A DNA stretch of 64,000 nt from Lepas anatifera (taxonomy: Eukaryota > Arthropoda > Thecostraca > Lepadidae). A program made the translations under genes and the position numbers. The notes beneath the pieces were generated by a model. The model saw only the letters and a list, made by a program, of their open reading frames with translations, did no database searches and had not been told where the DNA came from. Below, in pieces: positions 3,161 through 55,493 of this stretch (position 1 is its first letter; the number at the start of each line of letters is the position of its first letter). The DNA is taken from contig JAOTON010001028.1 of assembly GCA_034440635.1 (NCBI GenBank), positions 806,001 through 870,000 of the forward strand. Direction: 5' to 3'.

Positions 3161-3308
3161 GGCTGCACGATCGACTGGAAGGAGGGCAAAAACATCACGC
3201 TCAAGACCATCAAGAAGAAGCAGAAGCACAAGGCACGAGGTAGCACGCGCACCATCACCAAAACCGTACAGAACGACTCCTTCTTCAACTTCTTCAACCC
3301 GCCAGAAG
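3161..3308 (+). CDS. Nap1: NAP1 penultimate coding exon
   Basis: The acceptor is ...ctcactcag at 3160 and the donor is GAAG|gtaggt at 3308/3309. The frame opens at GGC (G-C-T-I-D-W) and ends one base into a codon (phase 1). The G at 3308 joins TG at 5784 to restore Val. It encodes the basic hairpin and the FFNFFNPPE segment. Confidence 0.93.
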
Positions 3309-5980
3309 GTAGGTGGCCCACTAAGGCCACGGGGTGACTAGTAGGAACCCCTCACTAGGCTACGGCGTGGCGAGTGGGAACCCCTCTGATAGGTCACGGG
3401 GTGGCGAGTAGGAACCCCTCATTAGGTCACGGGGTGGCGAGTAGGAACCCCTCATTAGGTCACGGGGTGGCGAGTAGGAACCCTCATTAGGTCACGGATG
3501 GTGAGTAGGAACCCTCATTAGGTCACGAGGTGGCGAGTAGGAACCCCTCATTAGGTCACGGGGTGGCGAGTAGGAACCCCTCATTAGGTCACGAGGTGGC
3601 GAGTAGGAACCCCTCATTAGGTCACGGGATGGTGAGTAGGAACCCCTTATTAGGTCACGAGGTGGCGAGTAGGAACCCCTCATTAGGTCACGGGGTGGCG
3701 AGTAGGAACCCCTCATTAGGTCACGAGGTGGCGAGTAGGAACCCCTCATTAGGTCACGGGGTGGCGAGTAGGAACCCCTCATTAGGTCACGGGATGGTGA
3801 GTAGGAACCCCTCATTAGGTCACGGGATGGCGAATAGGAACCCTTCCAACAGGTCACGGGGTGGCGAGTAGGAACCCCTCATTAGGTCACGGGGGGTAGA
3901 TAGGTGCTACCGTGGCAGGCGACGGCCCTCCGGTGGGTACCCTCAGCCGATGCACAATAGGTCACGGATGGGGCACCTGTGCAGATGAGAATGGATAGCA
4001 TGCTTACTAGGTGGTCGATTGTAGTCGCGTCACAGTCTGACCACAGGTGAGGTTACGAAGCTGTTTGGGTTTATTATGCCATAAAATCAGCTTAACACGC
4101 GCCCCGCTGTGCTCCCTGGTATGATGCGCCCCGATGGGGGGGTTTATTTCGCCCTCCCCCTCCGTATCTCATTTCTTTGGAAGGCTAAATAAAAATTACG
4201 GACGGCGTTCGAAAGCTCTTACGAGACGAAGAGAAATTATGTGAAGTTGTTTATGTCAGGTCAATATTGAGGTCAGCATAGGTCAAAGAAGTTTTCATAG
4301 GCTTACAACAAGGCAGTGTACGTTGCCCCCTCTAGATTTTTACTCAGAGGAGCTAGAGAAAATATTTATGCATCATTGGATTCTTCTCATCGTGGCAAAT
4401 CAAATTATGTATAATATGACCTTGCTAGGTCAAATTGTGAAAATGATCTGACATCAAGCTAGGTCAGGATCACGGGGTGACCTGGTATGTTCATGTTGCG
4501 TATCAGTCGACTCCCCGTGGAAATATAAGCACAATGCAAGCAAAATAGGAGCTTTATCTCAATGCAGTGAGAAGTTATTGGCAAAACAATCACTCTATGC
4601 TTCTGTGACCTGGCATGAACTTTGAGAGTTCAGATGGTCGAAAACTCAACTTATCGTCAAAATTGTGGTAAGGACACACAGTTTGAGGATTTTCTGCTTT
4701 GATCTATCCAGTATTTACTGAAAATCGAGCCCTTTCTATTTTTCTCCATAGTCTTATAATTGGGTGACCCAAAAATTGACCCCACCTAAGGTCAACAGTA
4801 TCAAAATTCCAAGATAGCAGATCTGTAGACCCTTATGCCATTATATTATTGAAGTTTCAAATTGATCGGTTGGCTGATGTTCCTTAGGCGCCGCTTCAAA
4901 CTCGTGATTTTAGGTTTTTAAGTCGGGTCGCGTAACCTTGAATAGCTTTTTGCCCTGACATGACTTGACGTAAAAAATTTCGTCAGATGCGAAAAATAAA
5001 TCAGAGATAAGGTATAAGTTGAATTGTTCTGCGTCTCTTTGTTTTTGTGTTATCTGGGGAAAAACCAGGAGAGGGGGCGAATTACCCGCACCAGCGGGGC
5101 GCGTTTTAATTGTAATGACTTGGTGGTTGCAGGATCGAGGGTGTCAGATAACCAGCTGTGTAGCTGCAGACTCCCTTTCTTAATGGTTGAATTTAATATT
5201 GCCTCAGAAGTGCATGTTTTATTATAATGACCTATGCTGTAAAAAAAACATCTCGTTTCTTTGCTCAGGCGTCCTGGGCTGTGCTTAGAGTGGCCCTACT
5301 CGCCGGTAGCTGGTGTGTTGCAGTGTGTGGGGTGACCGGTAGATGGTATGTTGCAGTGTGTGGTTTGGCCGGTAGCTGGTGTGTTGTAGTGTGTGGGGTG
5401 ACCGGTAGTTGGTGTGTTGCAGTGTGTGGGGTGACCGGTAGATGGTGTGTTGCAGTGTGTGGGGTGACCGGTAGTTGGTGTGTTGCAGTGTGTGGGTGAC
5501 CGGTAGATGATGTGTTGCAGTGTGTGGGTGACCGGTAGATGATGTGTTGCAGTGTGTGGGGTGACCGGTAGATGGTGTGTTAAAGTGTGTGGGGTGACCG
5601 GTAGATGGTGTGTTGCAGTGTGTGGGGTGACCGGTAGTTAGTATGTTGCAGTGTGTGGTTTGGCCGGTAGCTGGTGTGTTGTAGTGTGTGGGGTGACCGG
5701 TAGCTGGTGTGTTGCAGTGTGTGGGGTGACCGGTAGTTGGTGTGTTGCAGTGTGTGGGGTGACCGGTAGATGGTGTGTTGCAGTGCCGGACGACCCTGAA
5801 GCAGAGGTGGACGAGGACACAGAGAGCCTGTTGTCGGCCGACTTCGAGATCGGCCACTTTATCCGAGAGCGAATCGTGCCGCGGGCGGTGCTATTCTACA
5901 CGGGCGAGGCTCTGGAGGAGGACGACTACGACGAGGATGAAGAGGAAGAGGAGGACAGTGAATCTGAGGCGGACCAGTGA
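3161..5980 (+). CDS. Nap1: Nucleosome assembly protein 1 (NAP1-like), C-terminal part of a spliced gene: join(3161..3308,5784..5980)
   Basis: NAP1 is a histone chaperone that binds H2A-H2B (and linker histone), shuttles between cytoplasm and nucleus, and takes part in nucleosome assembly. The two exons join in phase (148 nt, then 197 nt including TGA) to give 114 residues. The first contributes the beta-hairpin and basic segment (GCTIDWKEGKN, then LKTIKKKQKHK, a nuclear-localisation-like cluster) and DSFFNFFNPPE. The second contributes VPDDPEAEVDEDTESLL, then ADFEIGHFIRERIVPRAVL and FYTGEALEEDDYDEDEEEEED. This is the highly conserved end of the NAP domain followed by the acidic tail, in the order and spacing known for NAP1L1/NAP1L4 and insect Nap1. 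The N-terminal two thirds lie upstream of the window. The tail is somewhat shorter than in vertebrate paralogues and I see no C-terminal CaaX box, so prenylation is not expected. The intron between the exons is bordered by a minisatellite on each side. Confidence 0.95.
3316..3905. repeat. 33-bp minisatellite starting at the NAP1 intron donor
   Basis: Roughly 17 head-to-tail units of about 33 bp, of the form ggtcacggggtggcgagtag followed by gaacccctcatta, begin within about 10-20 bases of the 5' splice site. The 33-bp period (11 codons) keeps reading frames open on both strands. Those open frames are not genes. The segment aacccctcattag|gt in each unit resembles the exon end aacccgccagaag|gt. 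Confidence 0.95.
3906..4091. other. NAP1 intron, unique spacer
   Basis: Short sequence between the donor-side array and a TTAA element. It still contains one degenerate 'aataggtcacgg' piece of the array near 3956. Nothing else is recognised. Confidence 0.6.
4092..5109. mobile_element. TTAA-bounded non-autonomous element, AGGTCA-rich (copy 1)
   Basis: It starts TTAACACGCGCCCCGCTG and ends with the inverted counterpart CAGCGGGGCGCG near TTAA at 5106-5109, about 1.02 kb. The interior has many AGGTCA/TGACCT hexamers (for example 4257-4290 and 4425-4480) and no coding frame. TTAA at both ends with C-rich inverted termini is the hallmark of piggyBac-superfamily elements and their MITEs. The assignment rests on ends only, since no transposase is present. 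It lies inside the NAP1 intron. Confidence 0.75.
5300..5783. repeat. 33-bp minisatellite ending at the NAP1 acceptor
   Basis: About 14 units of 32-33 bp (ggtgaccggtagatggtgtg followed by ttgcagtgtgtgg). The final unit ends ...gtgtgttgcag, which is the 3' splice site of the last NAP1 exon. Every unit therefore carries the same ttgcag|tg acceptor-like string. Confidence 0.96.
5784..5980 (+). CDS. Nap1: NAP1 last coding exon with stop
   Basis: The acceptor is gtgtgttgcag at 5783, which is the end of the last unit of the adjacent minisatellite. The exon encodes the last conserved helix region of NAP (ADFEIGHFIRERIVPRAVL) and a strongly acidic tail ending SEADQ, with TGA at 5978-5980. The acceptor lacks a normal polypyrimidine tract because it is built from T/G-rich repeat. 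Confidence 0.94.
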
Positions 5981-6425
5981 CACAGCACTGGCGTCCAATA
6001 GACTCGGCGTCAGCTGTGACTGACATCGGGCTGAAGCGAGGCTCTGTTCCGGGCCCGGCGTTACTTGTTGCGATGTTGGCGTTCTGCAGCTCTGGTTGTG
6101 TCGCTGTGTCCGGCCGCCGGCCTCAGAATCTCTGTGCGCGCGCTGCGGTCAAGTTGGGACCAGACGGAACCGCCGGTATCTTGTCAGAGAAGGTTAGTCT
6201 CAGCGGCTCGAGACTGCGACAGAGCGTCCTGTGAGCCCGCCTCGCCGCTTGTGATGGACCAGAGCGCTCTCTGAGACCATCTTTCCACTTGTGATGCAGC
6301 AAAGCGCCCTGTGAGACCACCTCCTCCACCTGTGGTCTACAAGAGCGTTCTGTGAGACCGCACCAGCCATTCAATGCCGGCCCAACTCCCAGTCATTCGT
6401 GCATAAATATATTCTGTGCTTTGCT
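5981..6425 (+). other. Nap1: NAP1 3' untranslated region (predicted)
   Basis: Sequence after the TGA with no conserved frame. It contains three to four degenerate copies of a roughly 55-bp motif (agagcg..ctgtgagacc ... cttgtgatg) at about 6217-6365. The end is placed at a CATAAA signal followed by T/G-rich sequence. Confidence 0.5.
6402..6407 (+). terminator. Candidate poly(A) signal CATAAA for NAP1
   Basis: CATAAA is a known variant hexamer. It is followed within 10-45 bases by tgtgctttgc and ggtgtgattgtgag, which fit a GU-rich downstream element. No canonical AATAAA was seen between the stop codon and this point. Confidence 0.4.
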
Positions 6426-9400: not shown

Positions 9401-9636
9401 GAATCTCCTTGAATGTTTAAGTCAATGGTAGCTAATGCAGATTTTTGGTACATCTTAGACTCTATTTTAAGAACGGGTTCAGCACTTCTGTCTTCGGAAA
9501 TTACAAAATAAACCATTCATGTTCTGTTCAGGGTATAGGGGAACACATCTCAGCAGCTAAGAGGCACCTGGGCACCGGTGGGACTGGAGGTGTTTTTGCC
9601 TTCTTCCTGTGCCCCTGTGTATATGGTTCTAACGGT
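6426..9636. other. Intergenic stretch, no gene recognised
   Basis: It includes a GC/GT-rich block at about 7000-7600 in which three + strand frames stay open at once (6886-7638, 7002-7379, 7151-7591). Their products are low-complexity Gly/Val/Leu/Trp/Cys-rich strings without a domain, as expected from G/T-biased composition and not from coding. The remainder is AT-rich unique sequence. Confidence 0.5.
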
Positions 9637-9835
9637 TTAAACTTTGCCCGGGTGGTGGGTACGAGCCACCTCCGCTCTGGTGGGGGTAAAAAAGACCTCC
9701 CACCGACTATCTAAAAAAATAAACAGGAACCAGAAAAAAAGCAGAAAAAGACAATCGAAAGCTCGTCATAAATACAGGCGAGACTGCTTTAGTCACTTTT
9801 TTCGTCAGGTCAATATTGCGGTCAGTAGAGGTCAA

Positions 9836-10872
9836 TTAACCCGCCCCCCACCGGGGGTCCGGCGCCACCTTCGCCCCACCGGGGGCCATCGATGGCCCCC
9901 GGTGGGGCCCTCCGAACATGGGGGTGGGGGTTAGCGCCAATCTGTAAAGTGCATTAGAAAACTCGCGTGAATTCAGCAAGAAATTAGTTCACATGCTTAA
10001 GTGCTCAGGTGAATAGTTTGACCTCCAGAGGTCAATTTAGGTCAATATAGCCTATTTTCACTCAAATATGCAATGATTAAGCATACGGGGCATAACTCTT
10101 ATGTCATTAGAGCTGTTGAGATCTGATAAAGTACATTTGATAGGAAAATGCCAGACCTTTTTCCGCTATTTGGAACGTAATGACCTCCCGCCAGTGGTTT
10201 GACCTCAAGAGGTCACCTCGTGATCTAATATGACCTTAGGTCACGAAAGGTCAGAACGTGACCTTGCCGTATATCAAATGAAAGCCAGTGACGAGACATA
10301 CAAGGTGCTGTTTGATGCAACGCTCTAACTTAATTAGGTCAAAAGTTATTGTTAAAATACTGTTTTTGACCCTGGTGACCTTGGATGACTTCGGAGAGGT
10401 CAGAGGGAAAATATGGCCCCTGGGATCCGTGAGAGGGTGTCCAGGAACGCGTTTCTGAGCAAGCCGAGCGTTTGCAATCGTTTTCGCGACTTTTATATCA
10501 TAAGGCAGCTTTTCCCCATGCTTTTTTAATGGGAGAGGTCACCTCGTGACCTGACCTCAGGTCACGAAATCGAAAAATCCTGGAGATACATCTTGTAGAC
10601 CCTGGTAGGGCAATGAAGTGTAGGAAGTTTCAAATTGATCGACCTAGAAATGTAGCTCTTATGGAGCTCAAAAGTTGAAGTGAGGTGACTGGTTGACATC
10701 GCCTGGTGACCTGACCGTAGGTGACCTGGAGTAAAAAATGTCAGGGATGGTGGGAAAATGATGGGGTGAGAGTTAGAGCCCTCAACCGCGGTGCTGCGCC
10801 TCATCGTTTCTCTGCTATCCCGAAAAAAATCCTTAGGGGGCCATCTCTGGCCCCCGGTGGGGCGAGGGTTAA
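9836..10872. mobile_element. TTAA element nested in copy 2 (copy 3)
   Basis: It runs from TTAACCC... (9836) to ...GGGCGAGGGTTAA (10869-10872), about 1037 bp, with inverted ends rich in CCCCACCGGGGG. Joining the flanks across the element gives aggtcaa-TTAA-ggtcaaaa, which corresponds to the uninterrupted sequence near 47037-47055 in the related copy. This is direct evidence of insertion at TTAA. The interior carries many AGGTCA motifs, including AGGTCAcctcgTGATCT near 10213. Confidence 0.88.
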
Positions 10873-30200: not shown

Positions 30201-33200
30201 TGGAGTGGCAGTATTGCTGATATGGTATTGGTGCGGAGTGACTGGTAGGCAAGTGGCAGTATTGCTGATACAGTATTGGTGCGGAGTGACTGTTGGTGGA
30301 GTGGCAGTATTGCTGACACGGTATTGATGTGGAGTGGCTGTTGGTCGGGTGGCAGTATTGTTGGTACGGTATGGATGCGGAGTGACTGCTGGTCGAGTGG
30401 CAGTATTGATGATACGGTATTGGTGCGGAGTGACTGGTAGGCAAGTGGCAGTATTGCTGATACTGTATTGGTGCGGAGTGACTGTTGGTGGACTGGCAGT
30501 ATTGTTGATACGGTATCGGCGCAGGTGGACGTGTACTCCCGCTGCTACCAGTACGTGGACGATATCACGCCCATGGTGAAGCTGTTGGAGGACCTGCGCC
30601 GGAGGTCCACTGAGGATGTGAGTACACCCGCCTGGCGGCACAGCTGTGACCTGAATCCCGTGCTGAGGCACTTTCTTGGTCTCAAATTGTATTCACAACT
30701 GAATATGTTTGTGTGTATGTAAATGATACCCCTGGTTTGAAAAGACGGATACACTAGTGCAGTTTACACTCTTTTAATGAGTGCAGAGAATTCGGACTAC
30801 GGTGGAAGACACCCAGATGGCTTCCGTACGTGTTCGAGTTCACACGGTGCCAGGTCTGAATTTGTTTTTTTTTTTGGGGGGGGTCAAGCGATAATATTGG
30901 GCTAAAACATTAATAGCTATTGCTGCCTTCTGCCTTTCGAATACAGCTTCCCTCTTTTAAGAAAACCAAAAGCGAAAGTTGTCTGTATAGCCCACTCGTC
31001 CCATCGCTTGACACGTCACTACCGTTGCCCGTCAAAGGCAGTTGCAAAGTCGTAGCACGCGGCGTAGGTAATGTCACTAGTCACGTGATCGCATGATAAT
31101 ATGTCCTGCCAGGATTAGGTACTGCATGGTAACCTGGCAATAGACTGAGGCTTCTCTAGCCTTCCAATTACAACGTGATGCTTGCAACGACGCTAGTTAT
31201 GCGCACGTCCGAGTGGCTGCCAAGCGCGTGTTAACCCGCGCCCCACCGGGGGTCCAGCGCCACCTTCGCCCCACGGGGGGCATCGATGGCCCCCACTAAC
31301 TCCGAAAATATGGGCGTTAGCACAAATCTGCAAAGTGCAATAGGAAGCTCACGTGAATTCAGTATGAAACTACTTCATATGTTTTAGTGCTCAGGTCAAT
31401 GGTTTGACCTCCAGAGGTCAAATTAGGTCAAGATCGGCTATTTTCACTCAAATATGCAATGCTTAAGCAAACTGGACATAACTCTTAAACTCTTATGCCA
31501 TTAGAGCTATTGAGGTCTGGTAAACTACATTTGATAGGAAATTGTCAGTTTTTTTCGCTATGTGAAACGTAAAGACCTCCCGCCAGTGGTTTGACCTCCA
31601 GAGGTCACCTCGTAACCTAAGATGACCTGAGGTCACGAAAGGTCAGAAAGTAACTTTGTCGTATATCAAACGAAAGCCAGTGACAAGATAAACACGATGG
31701 TCTTTGTTTCATTGCTCTCGCTTAATTAGATCAAAAGTTATTGTCAAAATACCGTTTTTGACCCCTGGTGACCTTGGATGACCTTGGAGAGGTCAAAGGG
31801 CAAATACGGTCCTTGGCATCCGTGAAAGGGTGTCCAAAAACGCTTTTCTGATCAAGCTGAGCATTTTCAATCGCTTTTGTGACTTTTAGATCATAAGATA
31901 GCTTTTCCCCATGCTTTTTCAATGGGAGAGGTCACCTCGTGACCTGACCTCAAGGGCACGAAATCGAAAAATCCCAGATATACACGTTGTAGACCCTGGA
32001 GGGGCCATAAAGTGTAGGAAGTTTCAAATCGATCGACTTCGAAATGTAGCTCTTACAGAGCTCTAAAGTTGAAGTGAGGTGACCTTGGTTGACTTCGTCT
32101 GGTGACCTGACCATGGGTGACCCGGGGTAAAAATTTCAGGGATGATGGGAAAATGATGCAGTGAGAGGTAGAGCCCTCAACCGCGATGCTGCGCCTCTTC
32201 GTTTTTTTGCTATCCCGGAAAAACCTTAGGGGGCCATCTTAGGGGCCATCGCTTAACCCTCGCCCCGGTGGGGCGAGGGTTAAGCGAGGGGGAGAATGAG
32301 GTGTACGGACTGAACACTCTTTTTAGTGTTTTGAAAATATAAAAGCTGTGTTGAGAAGAAAGCGACAGCTACTCCTGCTCTATCTTCCTACTTGTTCCGA
32401 AAAGCCTCGGCCCTGGCACCGTAGAAATTTGGGTTTGGATGTATTTTGCCGTGGTCCGGTTAAATCATGCAAGGCTGGATATCTCCTCTCGACCGGGGTG
32501 GGGGGGTCTGGATGGGTGAACGCTGGCACGACAATACAAACCCTATACAAATTCAATGGGAAACCCAAAATACAGGGAGGGTCCTAAGCCCCCAACTTCC
32601 CCCCGGGACCTCCACCCATGGCCCTATACCAGTTAAAGCCTATAAACTGCACTTTTTTACACAAGTATCCACCAAAACAGCTCTCCTCCGTAACAGAAAT
32701 AACTCAACCAGACATTTTCTTATGAATAATTCTTGAAGGACCATACCAATGTGTAAACACCGATGATTTTTCTCAAGTTTAAGTTTTTAAGGGGTCTAAA
32801 AATGCTCCCAATGAGCTTCTAACCTGACTGGAATTTCGGAATTGACCGTAATTCATGTCCCTCTTTCAGTGGCGCAGCCAGGGGGGCACAGGGGGCACGT
32901 GCCCCCCATCGGTGCCGGGGTGCCCTTTTGATTGCCAGGTTGTGTGCCCTTTTTGGCCGTGCCGCTCGAAATTTAGTGCCCTACGTCGTTGAGCCTAGAT
33001 GGAACTAGACTGCATTTAGCGATTTGAACTATTGTTTGACAATTAAGTGCCTTTTTGGTCAGTTAGGGCATTCTGTCGCCTTTCCAAGCACCCAGGAAGA
33101 GTATAGGCACGTAATCCGTTTCCAAATAATGCCTCATCGTCGCCAATAATCGTATGGGCAGAGCTAAACTGGTGCCCCTTGAGCTCATCTGGTGCCCCTG

Positions 33201-39410: not shown

Positions 39411-41455
39411 ACTCTTCTACAAGACTTATTACACAGGGAATAGTGAATTATGGAAAATTGTATAAGTTTATCTTGTTTTGTTTTGTTTATTGCTTGATTT
39501 CTGTCTGGCAGACAACGAGAAGGCTTGGCAGGAGTATGAGGAGGGTAAGGTGTCTATAGTCAGTCTTCTAGACCAGGCCGATGACAAGCTTCGCAACATC
39601 CGTAAACTCTTCAACCCCAAGGAGGGCGCCGACGACCTCACCAACCGCGTGGAGATCGCCAGAAAGACACGCGAAGCCAACGAAGCGTGCTTGAAAAAGC
39701 TGAAGGAAAATGTGGAGATCATTTGTGCCATTTGTTCACCGGATAAAAAGGAGGAGCTGAGCAAAATCGTGAGTTGACGCCTGATATCGCATTTTATTGC
39801 CAAGTTGGTTGGGTTCCGAGTTCAAAATGGGCATTGAACATCTGAACATGTTTCGTGCTGATTAACAGTGCTGAATCATCTCACCGCAGTAAACTCAGAT
39901 ATCGCAGTGACTTCACTTATCTAGCAATAAAACTACATTCGTTGCCCAGCTTTCAGCAAAGTCTTCTACCATTATCAAAAGATGATTATAAAATCATTGG
40001 CATTGTCACACAATGAAGACTTGTTCAAAGCAGGAGTATCATGGAGCCCATTCTTGTTATGTGTTTGCTTCAGATGTCAGGGTTTGAGGAGCGCAACAAG
40101 GTCCTGGAAAACACAGACGACCGTATTTCAAAACTGCAGAAGTACACATCTGATCTACAGGTGAGCCAGTGCAAGTGACCTCTCTTCCTTCTCTGGTTTA
40201 GCGCGGAGAAGGAACAGCACAGATCACCCTGCTCCTGCCTGAACCTCAAACCATGGGCTGAGGTAAAGTCGATAAGTCTGAGATCTTCACCAACATAAAT
40301 CCCTTGTCCTGCACATAATCAAGGCTCGACGAAGTAGAGGAGAACAACAAATGGCTACTCGTCAGTTCAAAGATGGAACTAAAGGCAACAAATTAAGAAC
40401 TCATATGTTTAACGATGGAAGGAATTCCTAGAAAGAGTGGATCAATCCCATCGTAGTTTTCATATGAAAATCGTGTATATTCATATAACCTGTCACAATA
40501 GCGCATTTGTTCAAAATCCGATAAATGAAACTTTCACAGAAAGCTTAACACCTCAGTTTTTATCGTGGATCGAGTGCGAGTCTGACGCCGCGTCGCCGCC
40601 GGCGCGCAGACGTTCGTCGACAAGAAGGAGGCGTCTCTGGCATGGCTGCACACCGGTCAACAGCAGCTGGACGAGCTGATGAAGTTCCCCGGCGAGGACA
40701 AGTCTGACGAGAAACTGCTAATGACAGTCAAAATGCAGAAGGACATGGAGGTGCAGCTCAACATCCTGGCTGACCTGTGCACCGAGTCGGAGCGGCTGCT
40801 GGGAGGTGAGGTCACACCACCGCGCCCTCGGTGCAGTCACGTGACCAGCGTGACCGGCTCTTGGGTCACGTGACCAGCGCGGCCGCCCTGTCGCCGGTCG
40901 TTGGCTGAGTTGGAGGTCGTTTTGGCTGGGATCTCTCTTGATCCTCCAGGTGGTAGCACCAGTTGGCTGATTATTTAATGCAGCTGTTATGTTAAGACAT
41001 CTCCACCGTCAAGCTATTTATGTTAACATGCGCAGAAAAAGGGATGAAATTTACCCTAGCCCATGCTTTTCAAATCATATCACTGCTCTACTGTTTTGAC
41101 GTTTCGATACTTTGTCTGCTTTGCCAGAAAAAAATTCTGGAACGCCTTGATAACTGGTTGGAAGAAATCAGGTGATTTAAAATATTTCCTGGATATTTTG
41201 GTTGTTTCATGCTAACGCTGATGCAGTTGTCGAGTTGAGCCCACGCGAACGTGGTTAGATATTGTGAATTTCATCGCTTTCAATGTCCACAGGAAAGCAA
41301 AACTCAGTCGCTGAACAGCACTGCTTGGAAGTAGAGCAGGTGAAAAATAAGCTAGAAGAATTGAACAACAAACTGAAAGATGTTTCGGGAGAGATTTCGG
41401 AAGATCTGCACCACTGGGCTGATTATCAGGTGAGAGAGAGAGAGAGAGAGAGAGG

Positions 41456-41494
<39 letters not shown>

Positions 41495-44400: not shown

Positions 44401-47400
44401 TTCAGGCTCCTCGCATTGCTTCCAAGTGTTTCCGATTTGCTCAAGCAGCGCAGGGCTATTCAGCCGGTTTGGATTAGCACCCATGTACAGAAGCGCCGAG
44501 TTAGCAGCGACTGAGGGTGCCGGATGGTGTTTGCAGGAGTTTGACACTGACGTCAAGGAGCGTCTGGCCAACCTGGACAAGATGACGGAGACGGTGACGA
44601 TGATGACGCAGCACGAGAAGGCGGACCGCGAGATCACCGAGTGCCGCGAGCGCCGGGAGAAGGCGGAGAAGGTCTCCACCGAGTGGGTGGAGAAAACCCA
44701 GAAGCTGGTCAAACAATGGGAGGACCTCAACAACACGGTGAGTGGGGCGGGGGATGAGGTTTCACCGCTGGTCTGCCGTATGAACCACTTCAGGACCCGG
44801 AGGCCGGGGGCTAGCCCTCTGTTATCTCGGCTGGAGGTAGCATCACCTTCGCTGCAACTTTGTAAAGCTAACAGTTCAGGGACACACACCCCTGAAAACC
44901 AGGGTTTGGCTCGGTTGCACTCACTAACACCGTGAAAGTGCTTAATGAACTTACAGATTAGGATGGGATAGTAAATTGGGTTGTTTCCGTTACACAAGCT
45001 AAGAAGCAAAACGTGTTGGTAAGTACGATATCACAGTCACATAGAGAATGCAATTGACGTGATTCGTCCTACCTGCAAGCAATTGAGATGAAAGAAATTC
45101 AACGTTTTTTGTTCGGTTCGAAATCCTCCGCCTGGTTGGTTTCGTGGACTGAGTTTGAACTCGCGATTCTTACATCGGATGTCTGCGGATGAAAAGAAAA
45201 TATTGGTCAGGATAAAATACCAATCGGTGCGTCTCAAAATATCCCACTTCCGGTTAAGCCTGTGCACCTTTTCAGTTGAAGTGTCTCCCTGCAACGAAAA
45301 AAGACGAGAAACGCACAGTCTATGCACGCTTCCAAACACCGTTGCAAATTACACCCAATTGTCAATTTACACCCAATCTTATGCCCAATTGGTTTTCCAG
45401 CTTAACTTATTGCATCCAATGGCGCCCTTGTTGGCGATTGACTGGCCTCGAGATGACGTGGATCCCTATTTCAAAATGTTTCGCTATTGCACTTTCGAAT
45501 TCCTATCAGTAAGGCAGCCTCGGTACTGTATACTGTCTTTTGCGTCATCAGAAAAATGTGATCCCTTGCTTTCGTCATGGATAACATATCAAGCATACAA
45601 TTAGCTTAAACCATTTCTTCTCTCGATGGCACTCTTGTTTCCGAGCTTAATAGCCTTGAAGTTGAGTTGTGCTGCTCAAAGCTGATAACTTTTTTTAAAT
45701 GAGCATCTCTCTGGGATCTAACTGTTGGAAATATCAGAGCAATATTCCCTTCGGTAGAAGATTCACATTTCTGAGAAACAAACGTATCTAGAGCGTAACC
45801 CTCAGCCTAAGATCTACGTCCCGTGCCAGTGTGCAACAAGTAGACGTAACTGACGACTCGTTATCGACTACGCGCTGCGAGGAATCCCGGCGGAGCTAGG
45901 TGTCGCCGCCGTGGAGACCTCTTCCTTCTTCCTTATTCTTCCCCTTCTCTGCAACTGTTAGGCGAAATAAATATATAACCACGAGGGTATTCTACAGGCA
46001 GGACTCATACCTCTCCTCCGATCCAATAAAGGTGTCACATTCCTTCCAACGCCTGCAAACGACTCTGAGCCTCAGCTCGAAAGGCACATGCTGGGCCGCC
46101 AAAGTTGATTTTTTTGCCTCGCTGCTTTACGTGTGTCTCAGACTGAGGCCAACTCAGTGAGGTGCCAACGGTTGAAGTTAGACCGGCCGGGAGAAATTTG
46201 ACACTCCGGTCAGTGCTGCGGGGTGCACCTGTCAGACCGACAGAGGGGTCCGGGCCCGGGGACGACGGGGCCGCGCCCGCTGCCAGTTGGCAGCCGGCGG
46301 ATCGCCCTGTCAGCCTCCCGAAGTCGACCCACCATCCCAGATGTCGCGGTAGCGCCGAAAACGAGAGGAGTCCTTCATTTTGAGAGTGACCGCCACCACT
46401 GTTCTTGAGAAAGGAGTGCCTACTCCCGTGCAGCAAGAGCTTTATCTTCTCTTTCCATTCGAAAATATTCACTGCACCAAGAAACAAATATGGTCCTCAC
46501 TTTTATTCCGGTCTCCAGACAGTCAAGGAACCAACACGCTTCCACACGTTCCATCGACCCACTATTCCCCACTGTGGGTGATCTAAAGAGCAAAAAAAGA
46601 GGTTAGAAAGGTCAGGGAATTATCCCCGGTGATGCAAAGAATCTCGAAGGAGGGTTTGATGCGAACATCCATATCGAGAAAATCTGCTCGGTGCCAGAGG
46701 AATGACGGAGGTCTATTGGAAAAGGTAAAACAGAACTGGAGGGAGCTGCTGTTTGCTGACGAAGAATCTCACGCCTGCAGCGAGTGACAAGCTGATATCC
46801 ACCTGGCCCTTCCGGCTGCGGAGGAAAGCCTGCATATCTCACCACCCGGGCAGGTTAACCCTTGCCCCGGTGGTGGGTACGAGCCACCTTCGCCCTCGTG
46901 GGGGGCTAAAAAGACCCCTCAATCTAAAAAAAACTAAGAGAGATAGACAAAAGCACAAAACGGCAATCAAAAGTTCTCCAAAAATGATACCGAAAATACT
47001 ATGGTCATCTTTCTCAGGTCAATATCAAGGTCACTAGAGGTCAAAATAGGTCAAAATCGATAATATAAGGTGTACTAAGAAAACCTCATATATCTAAAAA
47101 AAACTATGATGCTAGAATATTTTTAATACCATTCTAAAGCTCTTGAGTTGTTCTTTCATTACAGTGGTAATTATTTTCGGCTCAGGTCAAAGCCTAGGGA
47201 GATATAGGTCACTGAATATTTAGAATGTTCTTGGAAATGTCCATAGCCATCCATACATAAGGGTGTTTCCTTTTTCGCTCATAACTTCCAAACTAAACAA
47301 GATACAGTCATAGTTGATACACAATTGCAAACCTCTCGTCAATACAAATTGAATGATATATAATATTGCTATGTTAGGTCAAATTTAAAGTTTGACCTGA

Positions 47401-50400: not shown

Positions 50401-53400
50401 GTGGAAATGAGAGCATCATACAATTATTGTATGATGCTCTCTCTCATTTCACACGCGGTCAGTTGTGAGCGCTTAGAGCTCGTTCGTGGATTAGACGGGA
50501 CACGGTGTAGCCAAAGCGCGTAAGACTAGTTGCTGGTGTGGCGGTGTGAAGTGCTTAGCATTTTTATTTGTTATTGTGATGGTAGCATACATAAACGTCA
50601 CCACCGGCAAAAAAGTGGGGGGGCCAGTCAAACTTCAACCTCATGCTGACAACAAACTTTCCGCGTCAGTACCAAAAGCCGTTGGAATTTGGGCTCCTCG
50701 TTGCCTTCCGCAGCGGCTGGTTATACACATTTCCGGTTTTCTCCCATTTCGACTGAGATCAGGAAATTTCTGGTAAAAAAGTGGGCGGGGGCAGCCCCTG
50801 GGCCTTTTCCGACGCTTGTTGTAGCATATGTGAAATTTATAGTGAGATCGCTGCATAAATTTGTTCTGCAAAGTTCATTAGTTGTTGACTGGCCTTTCTC
50901 ATCGATTCCTTGATGTTTAAAATTGAAAGAAATTATATATTCGGCCACAGCCCCTCGATAGAATCATCAAATTGTCTCCCGAGAAACCCCTCTAACAAGG
51001 AGGGGAGCTGGCGACGCCATATGACTCTGACAGTTGGTGCGTCGATAAGCCTAAAAAATTATGAACTGGTTTGTGTACTACATTCCCTAGATGATTTTGA
51101 CAGCAACAGCCACACATCATAGTAGGTATGTACATAAAAATCTCGATTTAGCCAATAAATCACTTGTGTTTGATACTTTAGGAATTTACTTACCAGGCCA
51201 CACCCATAAAGAAAATTAAGAAAATAACCTTTTCATTTGGAATAAATTGAGGAAGCACCAGGGCTGCCAGGTTGGCCAATTTTGTGGCCAAATATCTCGA
51301 ATTGGGCCCTTTTTGTTTGAATTGGCCCCGAGATTTTTTCAGTCAGCCCTTCCTTGGAATCTGGCCTTTTTGCCCCTTTTTCTAGCAGCTGGTACCTAAG
51401 CTATTTATGATTTGTCCTTTGTATAAATATGGCTTCTTTTGACCTCTTCCGCTCTTGAATATGATATTCTGACACCGAAATGCAGCTGGGTAGCAGAAAA
51501 AAACTGGTATTGTGGTGGGAGGGAGGGACAGAACTTTGTTAACAACACAATCCACAAAAAAATGATGGCCACCGAAAACAGGACGCGAAAGATGCGATAC
51601 TATAGGCGCCCTTTGGGTGAAAACTTGATGGCAAAGTGCGCCCTCTGAGTCTCCACACTCCACCACTTACCAAAATCCTAGATCCGCCACTGTTCAAGAG
51701 CAAAAAATGCATAGTTGGAAAAGAGAGAAAACATTAAATGTTGCGGGTAGTAGTGCGGCCGAGATGATTACTGATGCTAACAAATGTTCTGGTATGTGAA
51801 TAAAATCATTTGATGGTCACGCAGGATTGAAAGGGTGGCTTCCTATTAAATGAGCAGTGTACTAAAAATATTGCGTCAAGTCAATATCAAACTGTCAACA
51901 ATTAGTTTTAAACAGTGATACAAGTCGTTTTTGTGGGCTTATGACTACCGCTAGGGATTGTTTTAGCCTCAAACCTGGCTTTTGTGGTATTTATTTTGCT
52001 ATTTTAGTGAACATAAAATTGTGCCCCTCTTTGGGTCTTTTTCTTCCTCGGCTTGACTTGTCCCAACAAAAAAATTTGACAGCCCTGGGTAGCATCTATA
52101 ATCTGGAATAACATAGAATAACATAAAATTTTAGAAACATCTTATAACACTAACGCGTCTACGTTTTGTTAAACCCCCTCGAAATGGGGTCTTAATCCCC
52201 TGAAGACACTATACCTAATAGCCAGCACAAGAAATGCCCCCCCACTGACTTGTCCTTCAAAAATGCCCTGGTTAGGGCTGACAGTGCGCTGTTTGTGTGC
52301 GGTACGGGGCTGTTGGCGACCTGTTGTGCGAGTGTTTGGGCTGACAGGGCACTGTTTTATTGTACCAGGGCAGGCAGTGCACTGTTGTATAAGAGTTAGG
52401 ACTAAAGGCACCATGTTGTGCGATGGTTAGGACTGACAGTGCGCTGTTGTATGAGAGTTAGGACTAAAGGCACCCTGTTGTGCGATGGTTAGGACTGACA
52501 GTGCTCTGTTGTATGAAGGTTAGTGGACAGTGCTCTGTTGTACGACGGTAAGTGCTGATGGTCCGCTGTTGTGTGGGAATAGATATTGGAGGTATGCCCA
52601 GGGCTGTTGTGACTGACTGACTGACGATACACTGTTGTGAAGGTCCGGGTGACGGAGGTGCAGGGCTGACGCTGTACCATTGTGTAAGAAGCAGGACTGA
52701 TGGGTGGGGGCTAGGGGTGATGGTACTCTCTTGTGTGAGGGTTAGGGCTAATGGTGCGGTGTTGTCTGAGGAGCAGGGCTTTTGTGTGAGGGACAGGGTT
52801 GATGGGGGAGAAGCAGTGCTGACGGTGGGCTGCTGTGTGAGGTGCAGGGCTGACGGTGCGCCGCTGTGTGAGGTGCAGGGCTGACGGTGGGCTGCTGTGT
52901 GAGGTGCAGAACTGACGGTGGGCTGCTGTGTGAGGTGCAGAGCTGACGGTGGGCTGCTATGTGGGTGCAGAGCTGACAGCGGGCTGCTGTGTGAGGTGCA
53001 GGGCTGACGGTGGGCTGTTGTGTGAGGTGCAGGGCTGACGGTGGGCTGCTTGTGAGGTGCAGGGCTGACGGTGGGCTGCTGTGTGAGGTGCAGGGCTGAC
53101 GGTGGGCTGCTGTGTGAGGTGCAGGGCTGACGGTGAGCTGCTGTGTGAGGTGCATGTGACGGAGGTGCAGGGCTGACGGTGGGATGCTGTGTGAGGTGCA
53201 GGGCTGACGGTGGGCTGCTGTGTGAGGTGCAGGGCTGACGGTGCGCTGCTGTGTGAGGTGCAGGGCTGACGGTGCGCTGCTGTGTGAGGTGCAGGGCTGA
53301 CGGTGGGCTGCTGTGTGAGGTGCAGGGCTGACGGTGGGCTGCTGTGTGAGGTGCAGGGCTGACGGTGGGCTGCTATGTGAGGTGCAGGGCTGACGGTGGG

Positions 53401-55493
53401 CTGCTGTGGTGCAGGGCTGACGGTGCGCTGCTGTGGGTGCAGGGCTGACGGTGGGCTGCTGTGTGAGGTGCAGGGCTGACGGTGCGCTGCTGTGTGGGTG
53501 CAGGGCTGACGGTGCGCTGCTGTGTGAGGTGCAGGGCTGACGGTGGGCTGCTTGTAGGTGCAGGGCTGACGGTGCGCTGCTGTGAGGTGCAGGGCTGACG
53601 GTGGGCTGCTGTGTGAGGTGCAGGGCTGACGGTGTGCTGCTGTGTGGTGCAGGGCTGACGGTGCGCTGCTGTGAGGTGCAGGGCTGACGGTGCGCTGCTG
53701 TGTGAGGTGTAGGGCTGACGGTGGGCTGCTGTGTGAGGTGCAGGGCTGACGGTGCGCTGCTGTGTGAGGTGCAGGGCTGACGGTGGGCTGCTGTGTGAGG
53801 TGCAGGGCTGATGGTGCGCTGCTGTGTGAGGTGCAGGGCTGACGGTGGGCTGCTGTGTGAGGTGCAGGTGACGGAGGTGCAGGGCTGACGGTGGGATGCT
53901 GTGTGGGTGGGATGCTGACGGTAGGCTGCTGTGTGAGGTGCAGGGCTGACGGTGGGATGCTTGAGGTGCAGGGCTGCTGTGTGAGGTGCAGGTGACGGAG
54001 GTGCAGGGCTGACGGTGGGCTGCTGTGTGAGGTGCAGGGCTGACGGTGGGCTGCTTGTGGGTGCAGGGCTGACGGTGGGCTGTGTGAGGTGCAGGGCTGA
54101 CGGTGGGCTGCTGTGTGAGGTGCAGGGCTGACGGTGGGATGCTGTGTGAGGTGCAGGGCTGCTGTGTGAGGTGCAGGTGACGGAGGTGCAGGGCTGACGG
54201 TGGGCTGCTGTGTGGGTGCAGGGCTGACGGTGGGCTGCTTGTGAGGTGCAGGGCTGACGGTGGGCTGCTGTGTGAGGTGCAGGGCTGACGGTGGGATGCT
54301 GTGTGAGGTGCAGGGCTGCTGTGTGGGTGCAGGTGACGGAGGTGCAGGGCTGACGGTGGGCTGCTGTGTGAGGTGCAGGGCTGACGGTGGGCTGCTGTGC
54401 GGGTGCAGGGCTGACGGTGGGCTGCTGTGTGAGGTGCAGGTGACGGAGGTGCAGGGCTGACGGTGGGATGCTGTGTGGGTGGGATGCTGACGGTAGGCTG
54501 CTGTGTGAGGTGCAGGGCTGACGGTGGGATGCTGTGTGAGGTGCAGGGCTGCTGTGTGGGTGCAGGTGACGGAGGTGCAGGGCTGACGGTGGGCTGCTTT
54601 GGGTGCAGGGCTGACGGTGGGCTGCTGTGTGAGGTGCAGGGCTGACGGTGGGCTGCTGTGTGAGGTGCAGGCTGACGGTGGGCTGCTGTGTGAGGTGCAG
54701 GGCTGACGGTGGGATGCTGTGTGGGTGCAGGGCTGCTGTGTGGGTGCAGGTGACGGAGGTGCAGAGCTGACGGTGGGCTGCTGTGGGTGCAGGGCTGACG
54801 GTGGGCTGCTGTGTGAGTGCAGGGCTGACGGTGGGCTGCTTGTAGGTGCAGGGCTGCGTGCTGCTAGGTGCAGGGCTGATGGTGGCTGCTTGTGAGGTGC
54901 AGGGCTGACGGTGGGCTGCTGTGTGAGGTGCAGGGCTGAGGTGGGCTGCTGTGTGAGGTGCAGGGCTGACGGTGGGCTGCTGTGTGAGGTGCAGGTGACG
55001 GAGGTGCAGGGCTGACGGTGGGCTGCTGTGTGAGGTGCAGGGCTGACGGTGGGCTGCTGTGTGAGGTGCAGGTGACGGAGGTGCAGGGCTGACGGTGGGC
55101 TGCTGTGTGAGGTGCAGGGCTGACGGTGGGCTGCTGTGTGAGGTGCAGGTGACGGAGGGTGCAGGGCTGCTGTGTGAGGTGCAGGTGACGGAGGTGCAGG
55201 GCTGACGGTGGGCTGCTGTGTGAGGTGCAGGGCTGACGGTGCGCTGCTGTGTGAGGTGCAGGGCTGACGGTGGGCTGCTGTGTGAGGTGCAGGTGACGGA
55301 GGTGCAGGGCTTGTGCGGTGCAGGGCTGACGGTGGCTGCTGTGTGAGGTGCAGGTGACGGTGGTGCGGTGCAGGGTTGGGTGGCTGCTGCCGAGAAGCTG
55401 GGCGATACACCGGACCAAACCACCGTGGACGACACCCTCAACAAGCTCAAACACTACTTTGCCGAGAAACAGAAGCTCGTCGAGGCACTGTAA
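20470..55493 (+). CDS. Spectrin-repeat protein, Msp300/nesprin-like short form, 12 exons
   Basis: The join is 20470..20634, 27596..27766, 30525..30617, 37556..37591, 38222..38450, 39512..39768, 40074..40160, 40610..40805, 41293..41429, 43986..44099, 44537..44737, 55374..55493, all with GT/AG junctions and matching phases. This gives about 601 residues. It begins MACWSENYHFIKEVYDFRVE in a good Kozak context (gcagccATGg) and ends FAEKQKLVEAL then TAA. The product is almost entirely helical and acidic/basic. Spaced tryptophans (KQWLNEML, AWQEYEEG, AWLHTGQQQLDEL, PWVNEVEERIKG, EWVEKTQKLVKQWEDL, GWVAAAEKL) are the marks of divergent three-helix spectrin repeats. Such proteins act as cytoskeletal spacers in muscle or at the nuclear envelope. 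I see no actin-binding CH domains, KASH peptide or transmembrane helix, so if this is Msp300/nesprin-related it is a rod-only form. Resemblance to arthropod muscle-specific protein 300 is from memory. The family call (spectrin repeats) is firmer than the gene name. Confidence 0.75.
22031..22063. repeat. (TA)n microsatellite
   Basis: About 33 bp of alternating TA in intron 1. Confidence 0.95.
24028..24235. mobile_element. MITE-like repeat, inverted copy at 50613-50818
   Basis: It starts CATAGGCGTCGGAAAGGGGG. The next roughly 190 bases (atttcctgatctcagtc, atgggagaaaac, aaggagcccaaatt, ggaaagttt..tgtcagcat) recur as the reverse complement near 50613-50818, and the last 50 bases recur near 62487-62530. 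No coding capacity. Confidence 0.8.
24905..25005. mobile_element. hAT-like MITE right end
   Basis: It ends CTGGATCCGCCACTG at 24991-25005, matching the terminus of the 13507 element. The left end and target duplication could not be fixed. Confidence 0.5.
26496..26550. repeat. (TA)n microsatellite, left part
   Basis: About 55 bp of TA immediately left of a small inverted-end element; TA continues on its right side. Confidence 0.95.
26552..26697. mobile_element. 146-bp inverted-end MITE within a TA microsatellite
   Basis: The ends CATAAGCGTAGGAACG and CGTTCCTACGCCTATG are inverted copies with one mismatch. The flanks are TA repeats on both sides, so any TA-based target duplication cannot be resolved. 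The terminus resembles CATAGGCGTCGGAA at 24028. Confidence 0.85.
26698..26736. repeat. (TA)n microsatellite, right part
   Basis: TA tract broken by one ataaataaat, the continuation of the tract left of the inserted element. Confidence 0.92.
27242..27285. repeat. (TA)n microsatellite
   Basis: About 44 bp of TA, some 310 bases ahead of exon 2. Confidence 0.95.
27596..27766 (+). CDS. Spectrin-repeat gene, exon 2
   Basis: 57 codons, acceptor ggcccccag, donor AAAG|gtgagg, phase 0 both sides. It encodes YQCKNLKRDELKQWLNEMLK ... LEALILRHTEVLPGIEESMRK. A second AG 9 bases downstream (taccag|TGC) would drop three residues, and the longer form keeps the helix register better. Confidence 0.88.
27820..28262. 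repeat. 12-bp minisatellite close to the exon 2 donor
   Basis: Dozens of gacgcacagacg-type units (variants gacacacagaca, gacgcatagacg) start about 50 bases after the donor, following a transitional gacgcaggcgg. The 12-bp period leaves frames open on both strands (Arg/Thr/His/Asp/Ala/Gln or Cys/Val/Arg/Ser/Pro strings), which are not genes. Confidence 0.95.
28440..30524. repeat. 48-bp minisatellite ending at the exon 3 acceptor
   Basis: About 43 units of 48 bp (tggcagtattgctgatacgg ... gagtgactgttggtggag). The distal units at 28440-29130 are more variable (gtcgacacagtctcgatgcg forms) and the middle is homogeneous. The last unit changes from gatacggtattggtgcggag to gatacggtatcggcgcag, which is the acceptor used by exon 3. 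The 48-bp period (16 codons) explains stop-free frames of up to 627 residues on the minus strand. Confidence 0.96.
30525..30617 (+). CDS. Spectrin-repeat gene, exon 3
   Basis: 31 codons, VDVYSRCYQYVDDITPMVK ... LRRRSTED, acceptor atcggcgcag (no polypyrimidine tract, part of the repeat), donor GAT|gtgagt, phase 0. Confidence 0.88.
30618..31230. other. Intron 3, first part, unique
   Basis: No exon or repeat was recognised apart from a T(n)G(n) run near 30866-30883. Confidence 0.5.
31231..32283. mobile_element. TTAA-bounded AGGTCA-rich element (copy 5) with a palindromic right end
   Basis: It starts TTAACCCGCGCCCCACCGGG and ends at TTAA 32280-32283. The last 31 bases form a perfect hairpin, TTAACCCTCGCCCC-ggt-GGGGCGAGGGTTAA (32253-32283), as if a second terminus had been added head-to-head. 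The interior closely matches copy 4, including the AGGTCA clusters. Confidence 0.9.
32284..32871. other. Intron 3, unique stretch
   Basis: No exon was recognised. Confidence 0.5.
32872..36500. repeat. Large degenerate satellite with about 530-bp higher-order units
   Basis: It begins with a hAT-like head CAGTGGCGCAGCCAGGGGGG. A block starting gcagccagg..gcacagggggcacgtgccccc and running through gattgccaggt and degenerate 20-25 bp 'gagctgatctggtgcccct' monomers recurs near 32876, 33442, 33958 and 34468. It then gives way to a monomer-only array to about 36500. No coding character. Confidence 0.85.
36501..37555. other. Intron 3, last part
   Basis: No exon was recognised before the microexon at 37556. 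A short run near 37235-37290 (gtccctcaagttggtgtccc) recalls the satellite monomers. Confidence 0.5.
37556..37591 (+). CDS. Spectrin-repeat gene, exon 4 (36-nt microexon)
   Basis: 12 codons, EHDKKPESGGMK, between a good acceptor (ttttatctcgtag) and donor AAG|gtaaat, phase 0 on both sides. It can be included or skipped without changing frame. Charged and Gly/Pro-containing, it sits at a linker between helices. Confidence 0.75.
37592..38221. other. Intron 4
   Basis: Unique AT-rich sequence, no feature recognised. Confidence 0.5.
38222..38450 (+). CDS. Spectrin-repeat gene, exon 5
   Basis: 76 codons plus one base, acceptor ctgtccgttcag, donor AAAA|gtaagt, phase 1 at the 3' end. It encodes IHPDSTEQVTTFIENQEANI ... 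GEFHQLIKRGEKLENQADCP ... AKLKLEVLK, a helix-turn-helix segment. Confidence 0.92.
38451..39511. other. Intron 5 with a (TA)n tract
   Basis: About 53 bp of TA at 39356-39408. Otherwise unique. Confidence 0.7.
39512..39768 (+). CDS. Spectrin-repeat gene, exon 6
   Basis: 257 nt completing the split Asn codon (A|AC), then NEKAWQEYEEGKVSIVSLLD ... LRNIRKLFNPKEGADDLTNR ... SPDKKEELSKI. Acceptor ctgtctggcag, donor ATC|gtgagt, phase 0. Typical spectrin-helix heptads with a conserved Trp near the start. Confidence 0.93.
40074..40160 (+). CDS. Spectrin-repeat gene, exon 7
   Basis: 29 codons, MSGFEERNKVLENTDDRISK ... QKYTSDLQ, acceptor gtttgcttcag, donor CAG|gtgagc, phase 0. A single helix continuing the exon 6 repeat. 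Confidence 0.86.
40610..40805 (+). CDS. Spectrin-repeat gene, exon 8
   Basis: 196 nt, TFVDKKEASLAWLHTGQQQL ... KFPGEDKSDEKLLMTVKMQK ... CTESERLLG, phase 1 at the 3' end. Acceptor gccggcgcgcag is GC-rich without a pyrimidine tract; donor GGAG|gtgagg. Trp in SLAWLHTG marks helix A of a spectrin repeat. Confidence 0.9.
41293..41429 (+). CDS. Spectrin-repeat gene, exon 9
   Basis: 137 nt completing Gly, then KQNSVAEQHCLEVEQVKNKL ... KDVSGEISEDLHHWADYQ; acceptor caatgtccacag, donor CAG|gtgaga, phase 0. The donor runs straight into a (GA)n tract. Confidence 0.91.
41430..41491. repeat. (GA)n microsatellite at the exon 9 donor
   Basis: gtgagagagag... starts at the intron's first base, interrupted once by gggagg. 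The 5' splice site is the start of the tract. Confidence 0.95.
41492..43243. other. Intron 9, unique part
   Basis: No exon or recognised repeat. Confidence 0.5.
43246..43606 (+). mobile_element. tRNA-derived SINE
   Basis: A pol III A box TAGCTCAGTTGG (43256-43267) and B box GAGTCGATTCC (43332-43342) lie in a tRNA-like head whose acceptor and T stems do not pair properly. The A-B distance is longer than in a plain tRNA. A roughly 230-bp unrelated body (cctgtgctttgtgggacgtt etc.) follows, and the element ends in an A-rich tail (aaaatttataaaaaaaatgag). This is the structure of a SINE and not of a functional tRNA gene. It lies in intron 9. Confidence 0.85.
43607..43985. other. Intron 9, last part
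   Basis: No feature recognised. Confidence 0.5.
43986..44099 (+). CDS. Spectrin-repeat gene, exon 10
   Basis: 38 codons, AELKTFQPWVNEVEERIKGG ... TSLAEAQEMLKSVQ, phase 0; acceptor cactaacgttgccag, donor CAG|gtgagc. This is the clearest canonical spectrin-repeat helix A plus loop (PWVNEVEERI..., then AEAQEML). Confidence 0.92.
44100..44536. other. Intron 10
   Basis: Unique sequence with no recognised feature. Confidence 0.5.
44537..44737 (+). CDS. Spectrin-repeat gene, exon 11
   Basis: 67 codons, EFDTDVKERLANLDKMTETV ... ITECRERREKAEKVSTEWVE ... VKQWEDLNNT, acceptor gtgtttgcag, donor ACG|gtgagt, phase 0. It completes the repeat begun in exon 10 (helices B and C) and opens the last repeat. 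Confidence 0.93.
44738..46854. other. Intron 11, first part
   Basis: Unique sequence with GC-rich pieces near 46160-46330. No exon fitting the spectrin rod was found. Confidence 0.5.
46855..47913. mobile_element. TTAA-bounded AGGTCA-rich element (copy 6)
   Basis: It runs from TTAACCCTTGCCCCGGTGG to CCGGGCGAAGGTTAA, about 1059 bp. It is uninterrupted and is the reference for the outer element at 9637. The interior has AGGTCA clusters (for example 47015-47055). Confidence 0.88.
47910..49020. mobile_element. TTAA-type element (copy 7) directly abutting copy 6
   Basis: It starts TTAACACGCGCATTGACGAG, sharing its TTAA with the end of copy 6, and ends ...CCCCGTCAATGTACGTG near 49006-49020, the inverted match of its start. 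The terminal TTAA on the right is not clean. Same AGGTCA-rich interior. Confidence 0.75.
50401..50455. repeat. Short perfect hairpin
   Basis: gtggaaatgagagcatcata pairs with its inverted copy tatgatgctctctctcattt around aca-att-att-gt, with one 4-base bulge. A smaller hairpin, cgtgaga/tctcacg, lies just upstream near 50368. Confidence 0.85.
50613..50818. mobile_element. Inverted copy of the 24028-24235 MITE-like repeat
   Basis: The reverse complement matches over about 200 bases, including gatctcagtcgaaatgggag and gcggaaggcaacgaggagcc. Confidence 0.82.
52265..52790. repeat. Degenerate outer part of the intron 11 minisatellite
   Basis: Diverged units such as gttaggactgacagtgcgct followed by gttgtatgagag, with the same order of motifs as the homogeneous 31-bp array next to it. 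Confidence 0.75.
52791..55373. repeat. 31-bp minisatellite ending at the exon 12 acceptor
   Basis: About 80 units of gtgtgaggtgcagggctgac followed by ggtgggctgct, many with indels. About 13 composite units contain gtgcag followed by GTGACGGAGGTGCAG (first clear copies near 53156, 53867 and 53992; last near 55295). The array runs into the last exon at 55374. A 31-bp unit with almost no stop codons on the minus strand yields spurious Ser/Pro/His/Thr-rich frames of 800-900 residues. Confidence 0.96.
55374..55493 (+). CDS. Spectrin-repeat gene, exon 12 (last coding exon)
   Basis: 39 codons, GWVAAAEKLGDTPDQTTVDD ... KHYFAEKQKLVEAL, then TAA at 55491-55493. The acceptor ggtgcggtgcag at 55373 is G-rich repeat; phase 0 fits exon 11. 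The first helix of this repeat seems about five residues short. A donor reading GCACT|gtaatc overlaps the stop, so continuation into further exons is possible, but no such exon was found downstream. Confidence 0.78.
   Translation, partial: GWVAAAEKLGDTPDQTTVDDTLNKLKHYFAEKQKLVEAL

Follow-up and report, generated by a model that had tools for sequence, protein, structure and literature searches.

The closest described counterparts of the arrays reported here are the 'mirage' minisatellites of lancelets, which are known, in the available portions of the two source articles, from Adh3, TnC, the globin genes BflGb6 and BflGb9, and PGBD5 (PMC3087553, PMC3902484). These are tandem repeats with units of 10–160 bp that lie over 5′ or 3′ exon/intron boundaries, and many of the units carry exon bases together with the splice signals, at both types of junction. 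According to the same portions of text, splicing is undisturbed by the repeats, and their length is unstable both between alleles and somatically (PMC3087553, PMC3902484). Related events are described in the accessible part of PMC4974935, where an intron gain in a potato gene is ascribed to one boundary-crossing duplication and where, in the potato RdRp, ATP2A1 and fission yeast cases, duplication of a boundary or of an AGGT site yields new splice sites. The Daphnia-centred tandem-repeat survey contains no word beginning with 'splice' in the available portion of its main text (PMC3152781), and two papers on barnacle genomes, as far as their main text was available, gave no match to 'tandem repeat' (PMC8270832, PMC8917513). 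Among the matches listed from the open-licence literature, none described boundary arrays from a barnacle.

We analyzed a stretch of 64,000 nucleotides from the barnacle Lepas anatifera (assembly GCA_034440635.1, contig JAOTON010001028.1, positions 806,001–870,000; hereafter the window), together with further loci of the same genome. A preliminary description had reported tandem arrays on splice junctions in two genes of the window and had known of no named system that produces them; the lancelet mirages are such a system. The Lepas arrays resemble mirages in that they reach or overlap the boundary (8 of 24 arrays) and occur at both 5′ and 3′ junctions (7 donor, 9 acceptor). Exon sequence combined with intron sequence in the unit is indicated for 13 of 24 junction-near arrays, but unevenly, with 9 of them in the gene on contig C1550 and one among the five of the window. 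In contrast to mirages, about half of the junction-near arrays adjoin the junction without detectable exon bases, the arrays reach ∼43 units and 2.5 kb, and one of them is associated with a predicted shift of an acceptor. The host also differs, being a barnacle (Arthropoda, Cirripedia) and not a cephalochordate, which is a taxonomic and not a structural difference. Judged from DNA alone, the Lepas arrays thus appear to be mirages in an arthropod, with a structural match at both junction types. Unlike in the potato RdRp, ATP2A1 and fission yeast cases, the Lepas introns are expanded at positions where the orthologous proteins are continuous, and no new intron is shown. Imperfect copies and units that are often ∼30 bp long (12 of 51 periods are 29–33 bp) are shared with ordinary intronic minisatellites and VNTRs. 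To our knowledge, such ordinary minisatellites are not pinned to splice junctions.

The two genes of the window are assigned by protein similarity as NAP1 and the gene of a nesprin-1-like protein. The composite NAP1 protein is 80% identical to Pollicipes NAP1L1 over 86% and 79% identical to its Amphibalanus counterpart (coverage in the two species 86–87%). The predicted protein of the second gene is 81% identical, over the full length, to a 594-residue Pollicipes protein, and its Amphibalanus relative carries the name nesprin-1-like. In Pfam searches, nine single exons matched no family above its cut-off, and the joined protein gave only a weak match to Spectrin_SYNE1, below its cut-off. Orthologs of NAP1 and the nesprin-1-like gene lie on contigs of the same size within Pollicipes (44,118,722) and within Amphibalanus (983,805), which suggests conservation of this neighbourhood among barnacles. 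A second NAP1 copy is present at C1407:296661-298023, with exons 90% and 82% identical to those of the window and a homologous intron of ∼1.0 kb, compared with 2.5 kb in the window gene; this relative is probably a paralog rather than an allele. The exons adjoining the arrays are listed below (^ marks a splice junction):

3161..3308, + strand: penultimate coding exon of NAP1, ending ..NPPE, GAAG^gtaggt; edges by ortholog alignment
5784..5980, + strand: last coding exon of NAP1; followed in the Pollicipes ortholog as VPDDPEA
27596..27766, + strand: exon 2 of the nesprin-1-like gene; donor 27766 fixed by orthologs
30525..30617, + strand: exon 3 of the nesprin-1-like gene; MRK^VDVYSRC unbroken in the Pollicipes and Amphibalanus orthologs
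44534..44737, + strand: exon 10 of the nesprin-1-like gene, ending AACAACACG^gtgagt
55374..55493, + strand: final coding exon of the nesprin-1-like gene, reading GWVAAAEK..VEAL up to the stop codon; 1 of 177 AG sites in frame

On alignment, the barnacle orthologs fix two of the intron positions. They are uninterrupted at junction 3308/5784, where NPP is followed by VPDD with one residue at the seam, and at junction 27766/30525 (MRK-VDVYSR).

The arrays of the window were located with TRF, which found every array named in the preliminary description at the position given there:

3324-3894 (from the donor, 3309..3894), + strand: 33-bp array, 17.3 copies, after the NAP1 donor; TRF
5303-5785 (array to acceptor, 5303..5783), + strand: 33-bp array, 14.7 copies, ending on the NAP1 acceptor; TRF
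27820-28263 by TRF (27770..28263 with degenerate units), + strand: 12-bp array after donor 27766; TRF and letters
28456-30516 (to the junction, 28456..30524), + strand: 48-bp array, 42.9 copies (∼43 units), before the exon 3 acceptor; TRF
41432-41491 by TRF (from the donor, 41430..41491), + strand: (GA)n microsatellite at donor CAG^gtgagaga; TRF and letters
52813-55363 by TRF (to the junction, 52813..55373), + strand: 31/62/124-bp array before the last nesprin-like exon; TRF

The distances between array and junction measured by TRF are 15 bp at 3308, 0 at 5784 (with an overlap of 2 bp), 53 bp at 27766, where a lead of about 50 bases had been described, 8 bp at 30525 and 10 bp at 55374. When the letters are read by eye, degenerate units start a few bases downstream of donors 3308 and 27766, and the unit immediately 3′ of the latter is GGGACGCAGGCGG. 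The units of the junction arrays match each other at 79–92% (TRF). The earlier view that the arrays do not belong to one dispersed satellite is borne out by the 33-bp unit at the NAP1 donor, which is not of a family with the same unit at many loci: its consensus has six exact matches in 1.04 Gb, all six inside its own array. The four upstream introns of NAP1 contain no array above the cut-off.

In NAP1, the unit of the donor array holds AACCCCTCATTAG^GT and resembles the exon end, AACCCGCCAGAAG^GT. Compared in register, unit and exon end agree at 6.3 of 13 bases, whereas 100 other exon ends agree at a mean of 3.2 and one of them scores higher; a local-alignment test detects no exon bases in this array. 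Three GTs of the array score equal to the true donor at 3308. The acceptor array shares 21 of 21 bases over the CAG^TG junction, of which two belong to the exon; the first control for this comparison was poor, as its random windows fell on arrays. Four in-frame AGs upstream (5652, 5685, 5718 and 5751) occupy the unit position of the acceptor, three in the context TTGCAG^TG and one in TTGTAG^TG.

Other arrays of the window are separated by at least hundreds of bases from every known junction (6220-6359, 15839-15981, 52375-52523 and 61867-62234). The last of these, a 30-bp array of ∼12 units, has no predicted exon near it and is an exception to the junction pattern. Degenerate 18–20-bp repeats of the type GGAGCTGATCTGGTGCCCC are found at 33161-36077 of the window and at two other loci (L008:8636-8719 and L010:9073-9196), and this recurrence looks like a dispersed family, unlike the junction arrays. 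The intronic stretches ∼4080-5110 and 31230-32000 have in common 'cgcccc..ggggg' blocks of high GC content and numerous words resembling AGGTCA; seen by eye, they are perhaps copies of one mobile element. COX1 of the assembly is 100% identical, over 98%, to the Lepas anatifera sequence. Partial or interrupted COX1 matches are also present on C1854, C1201, C1572 and other contigs, besides C609, and these are probably nuclear copies of mitochondrial DNA.

The relation between array and exon is clearest at the last exon of the nesprin-1-like gene. The 31/62/124-bp array contains ten copies of GCAG^GTGACGGAGGTGCAGGG, i.e. an acceptor AG followed by the codons V-T-E-V-Q and the start of G (VTEVQG), as well as 25 exact copies of the unit GAGGTGCAGGGCTGACGGTGGGCTGCTG, whose second half resembles GGTGGCTGCTG of the exon. 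Barnacle orthologs read ..TVTEVQGWVAAAEK at the seam between exon 10 and the last exon, with five extra residues (VTEVQ) at the position of 55374, where the Lepas exon is no longer intact: exon 10 stops at ..NNT, the last exon retains GWVAAAEK, and VQ codons are found in the bases just 5′ of it. The rest of the window gave no match to a degenerate pattern for AG^ followed by VTEVQ codons, and neither did 540 kb of further DNA from the genome (a figure that counts both strands). Since VTEVQG of the orthologs is encoded after AG in ten copies of the array, and the pattern is absent elsewhere in the DNA searched, the array at 52813..55373 was most likely derived from the acceptor plus the start of the last exon. 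Of the 177 AG sites across the span of the array, only 55374 stays in frame to the stop codon. Because this is the sole in-frame site, the acceptor at 55374 is predicted to have been shifted 15 nt inward, giving a protein that lacks VTEVQ.

The placement of arrays relative to junctions was analyzed in five genes with 93 introns, comprising the two genes of the window with upstream NAP1 and parts of three spectrin genes (Pfam PF00435); the additional stretches with multi-exon genes were chosen before any look at their repeats. Exons outside the window were taken from our own predictor, for whose codon scores and splice scores known exons served as the training set; of the 46 C1550 exons that entered the analysis, 18 coincide with Pfam spectrin matches. 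Arrays were accepted at a period of at least 10, a length of at least 60 and a score of at least 80, with adjacent pieces merged, so that the period of (GA)n at 41430..41491 is under the cut-off; the gap was measured to the nearer junction of the array's own intron. Ten arrays outside resolved introns were excluded, among them three in the random locus L023 and one of C1550 that lies across the acceptor at 365, at the beginning of that stretch. The gap test did not include L023, as its exon start had been set using the array itself, and a donor predicted inside an array at 15455 was set to 15424. Two null models were simulated 200,000 times, one with uniform placement of arrays contained within each intron and a lenient one in which duplications may straddle junctions.

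Sixteen of the 24 arrays lie ≤20 bp from a junction, against 1.90 expected for contained and 4.82 for lenient placement (in both cases P = 5e-6, the lowest value that the simulations can give), 7 of them on the donor and 9 on the acceptor side. Within the window, the count is 4 of 7 intronic arrays (expected 0.14, P ∼5e-6 to 1e-5; lenient 0.35, P ∼7e-5), and outside it 12 of 17 (expected 1.76 and 4.47, P = 5e-6 and 1.3e-4), so the splice position that had been proposed as the property shared by the window arrays, and for which a comparison with random placement had been suggested, extends to other genes. The effect is uneven across genes, and C1550, with 9 of 10 arrays ≤20 bp from a junction, carries much of the signal. 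When this gene is removed, 7 of 14 arrays remain within 20 bp (expected 0.79 and 1.97, P = 5e-6 and 5.5e-4). In C1781 and C618 jointly, 3 of 7 arrays are found at this distance (lenient expectation 1.63, P = 0.21) and 6 of 7 at ≤50 bp (lenient P = 0.006). A circular-shift test of overlap gave no excess in C1550 (8 junctions on arrays, 10.0 expected) or in the window (1 junction on an array, 2.8 expected; with 60 bp tolerance, 5 against 3.5), but it was set aside because shifted arrays can cover whole exons and real arrays cannot. In the Lepas anatifera genes examined, minisatellites are thus found on or ≤20 bp from splice junctions several-fold above chance.

A separate test addressed the exon sequence inside arrays. 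It drew on 24 arrays ≤60 bp from a junction at seven loci, which are not the same 24 as in the gap test, and scored the adjacent 30 exon bases against ∼200 other exon edges. The adjacent exon sequence was contained in 13 arrays at P ≤ 0.05 (1.2 expected), and in nine of the 24 it beat every other edge. Two of the seven loci, L021 and L023, are random stretches that were included because an exon stood next to an array there; they contribute three arrays, two of them positive, and without them the result is 11 of 21. This test shows no exon sequence in the other 11 arrays, which include four of the five in the window, the 12-bp and 48-bp arrays among them. In C1550, donor units at 29087, 29117 and 29148 read CACCAGTT[C/T]ATCAG^gtcagt, and the protein runs from the first CACCAGTT donor copy into the next exon (HQFI-R-DVDDEL). 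Further donor units (AGCAG^gtacgg) are located at 27694, 27744, 27839, 27888 and 27937 of this contig, and acceptor units (CACAG or CGCAG^GACA) at 22851, 22960, 23020 and 23080. L023 (C392:60001-70000) comprises one gene, which we take to resemble MAN1/LEMD3, with two junction-spanning arrays of 161- and 47-bp units and a 42-bp array of 33 copies. Consistent with this enrichment of exon edges, the 15 exon bases closest to the edge show local repetition at 5.3% on the donor side and 3.2% on the acceptor side, compared with 0.4–1.6% for exon bases 31–120. Because 13 of 24 arrays hold adjacent exon sequence and the 31-bp array holds the VTEVQG copies, some arrays at least can be taken, on their sequence, to have started from exon/intron boundaries that were duplicated in tandem, as had been surmised for the window.

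The junction-near arrays were probably produced by tandem duplication of boundaries followed by unequal exchange, as for the lancelet mirages. Donors as well as acceptors show many tandem copies, running into the intron, of a segment that covers or touches the exon edge. Unequal exchange would then raise the copy number; in three arrays, the identity of successive units follows no clean gradient and speaks neither for nor against this step. Purifying selection would spare only the exon-proximal copy while the intronic copies drift, and the edge of the array would stay pinned to the exon because selection keeps that copy intact. If the exon-proximal copy were damaged, the junction could move, as predicted at 55374. 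The least certain step is the choice of boundaries as sites of duplication, for which we tentatively favour repair that re-invades conserved exons. Conserved exons would be the sites where divergent homologues pair, and repair begun in an exon would meet an unmatched intron, re-invade the exon edge and recopy it. High polymorphism of the kind that this step would call on is reported for another barnacle, with coding diversity of ∼5% and ∼20% at fourfold sites in the available part of PMC8270832, and for lancelets, at 6–7% in that of PMC2632668. On a wider reading, which we regard as doubtful, splice-junction minisatellites would be footprints of recombination in hyper-polymorphic animals whose exons are the sole pairing islands, and would have evolved independently in lancelets and barnacles.

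Another possibility, to which we give tentative weight, is that boundaries are not targeted at all: duplications would occur anywhere in introns, and those at exon edges would last, as the perfect copy kept by selection re-seeds them through gene conversion. Per-base repeat coverage is compatible with this, as it does not peak at junctions (6.6–11.3% at 0–29 bp into the intron, lower than the 14.3% overall and the 17–27% at 240–479 bp). So is the finding that 29 of 34 arrays in 20 random 10-kb loci lie >60 bp from a predicted exon, with only 16 exons predicted there, and so is the modest excess of arrays that reach or overlap a junction (8 of 24; 3.35 under the lenient null, P = 0.009). However, long introns of 10.6 and 2.5 kb hold an array at one junction (gaps of 10 and 15 bp) and then kilobases that are free of arrays, and the 11 junction-near arrays without a detectable exon copy have nothing of that kind to serve as an anchor.

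It is quite unlikely that the splice signals themselves are targeted, with G-rich or AG^GT junction motifs driving slippage, R-loops or microhomology-mediated duplication. In 6 of 7 unit consensuses of the window genes, G exceeds C on the sense strand, and distinct arrays with three copies of CAGGTGAGT number 21 on contigs C1–C1084, against 3 for the reversed motif (P = 0.008 after correction for single-motif frequency, with one control motif only). At the level of matches, however, three CAGGTGAGT copies at array spacing occur 226 times genome-wide and the reversed motif 155 times, a ratio of 1.46 that is under the 1.69 of the single motif. The unit consensuses have no significant enrichment of splice motifs compared with shuffles or the antisense strand (judged by ranks, as means were distorted), and donors and acceptors are hit alike (7 and 9) despite their differing motifs. 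The proposal that arrays multiply decoy splice sites thus holds for NAP1, with its three donors and four in-frame AGs, but a general multiplication of splice signals is unsupported, because the units show no significant motif enrichment and the match ratio of the tripled motif falls below that of the single one.

Coincidence in a genome that is rich in minisatellites and in which many spectrin-gene introns are only 400–900 bp long is very improbable, since the null models use each intron's own length and still give P = 5e-6 overall and ≤1.3e-4 outside the window, and the exon sequence inside 13 of the 24 arrays near junctions would not be expected by chance. An artefact of assembly or gene prediction is equally hard to credit: the exon edges outside the window do come from our own predictor, trained partly on the same exons, but the units differ from each other (79–92% matches), the junctions 3308/5784 and 27766/30525 agree with the orthologs, and Pfam spectrin matches fall on 18 of the C1550 exons.

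Boundary-spanning tandem arrays had previously been reported, in the portions of the literature available, from a handful of lancelet genes. What is new here is a statistical excess of boundary arrays in several genes of a phylum unrelated to lancelets. A practical consequence is a warning for annotation, as intronic copies of exons in such genomes can yield false exons and frame errors. Boundary arrays across unrelated phyla would point to a general process of genomes that is open to study, with a bearing on the movement of splice sites, the growth of introns, the choice of site among near-identical decoys, and exon/intron boundaries as edges of recombination. If the arrays were indeed footprints of recombination, the process would shift splice sites and resize proteins.
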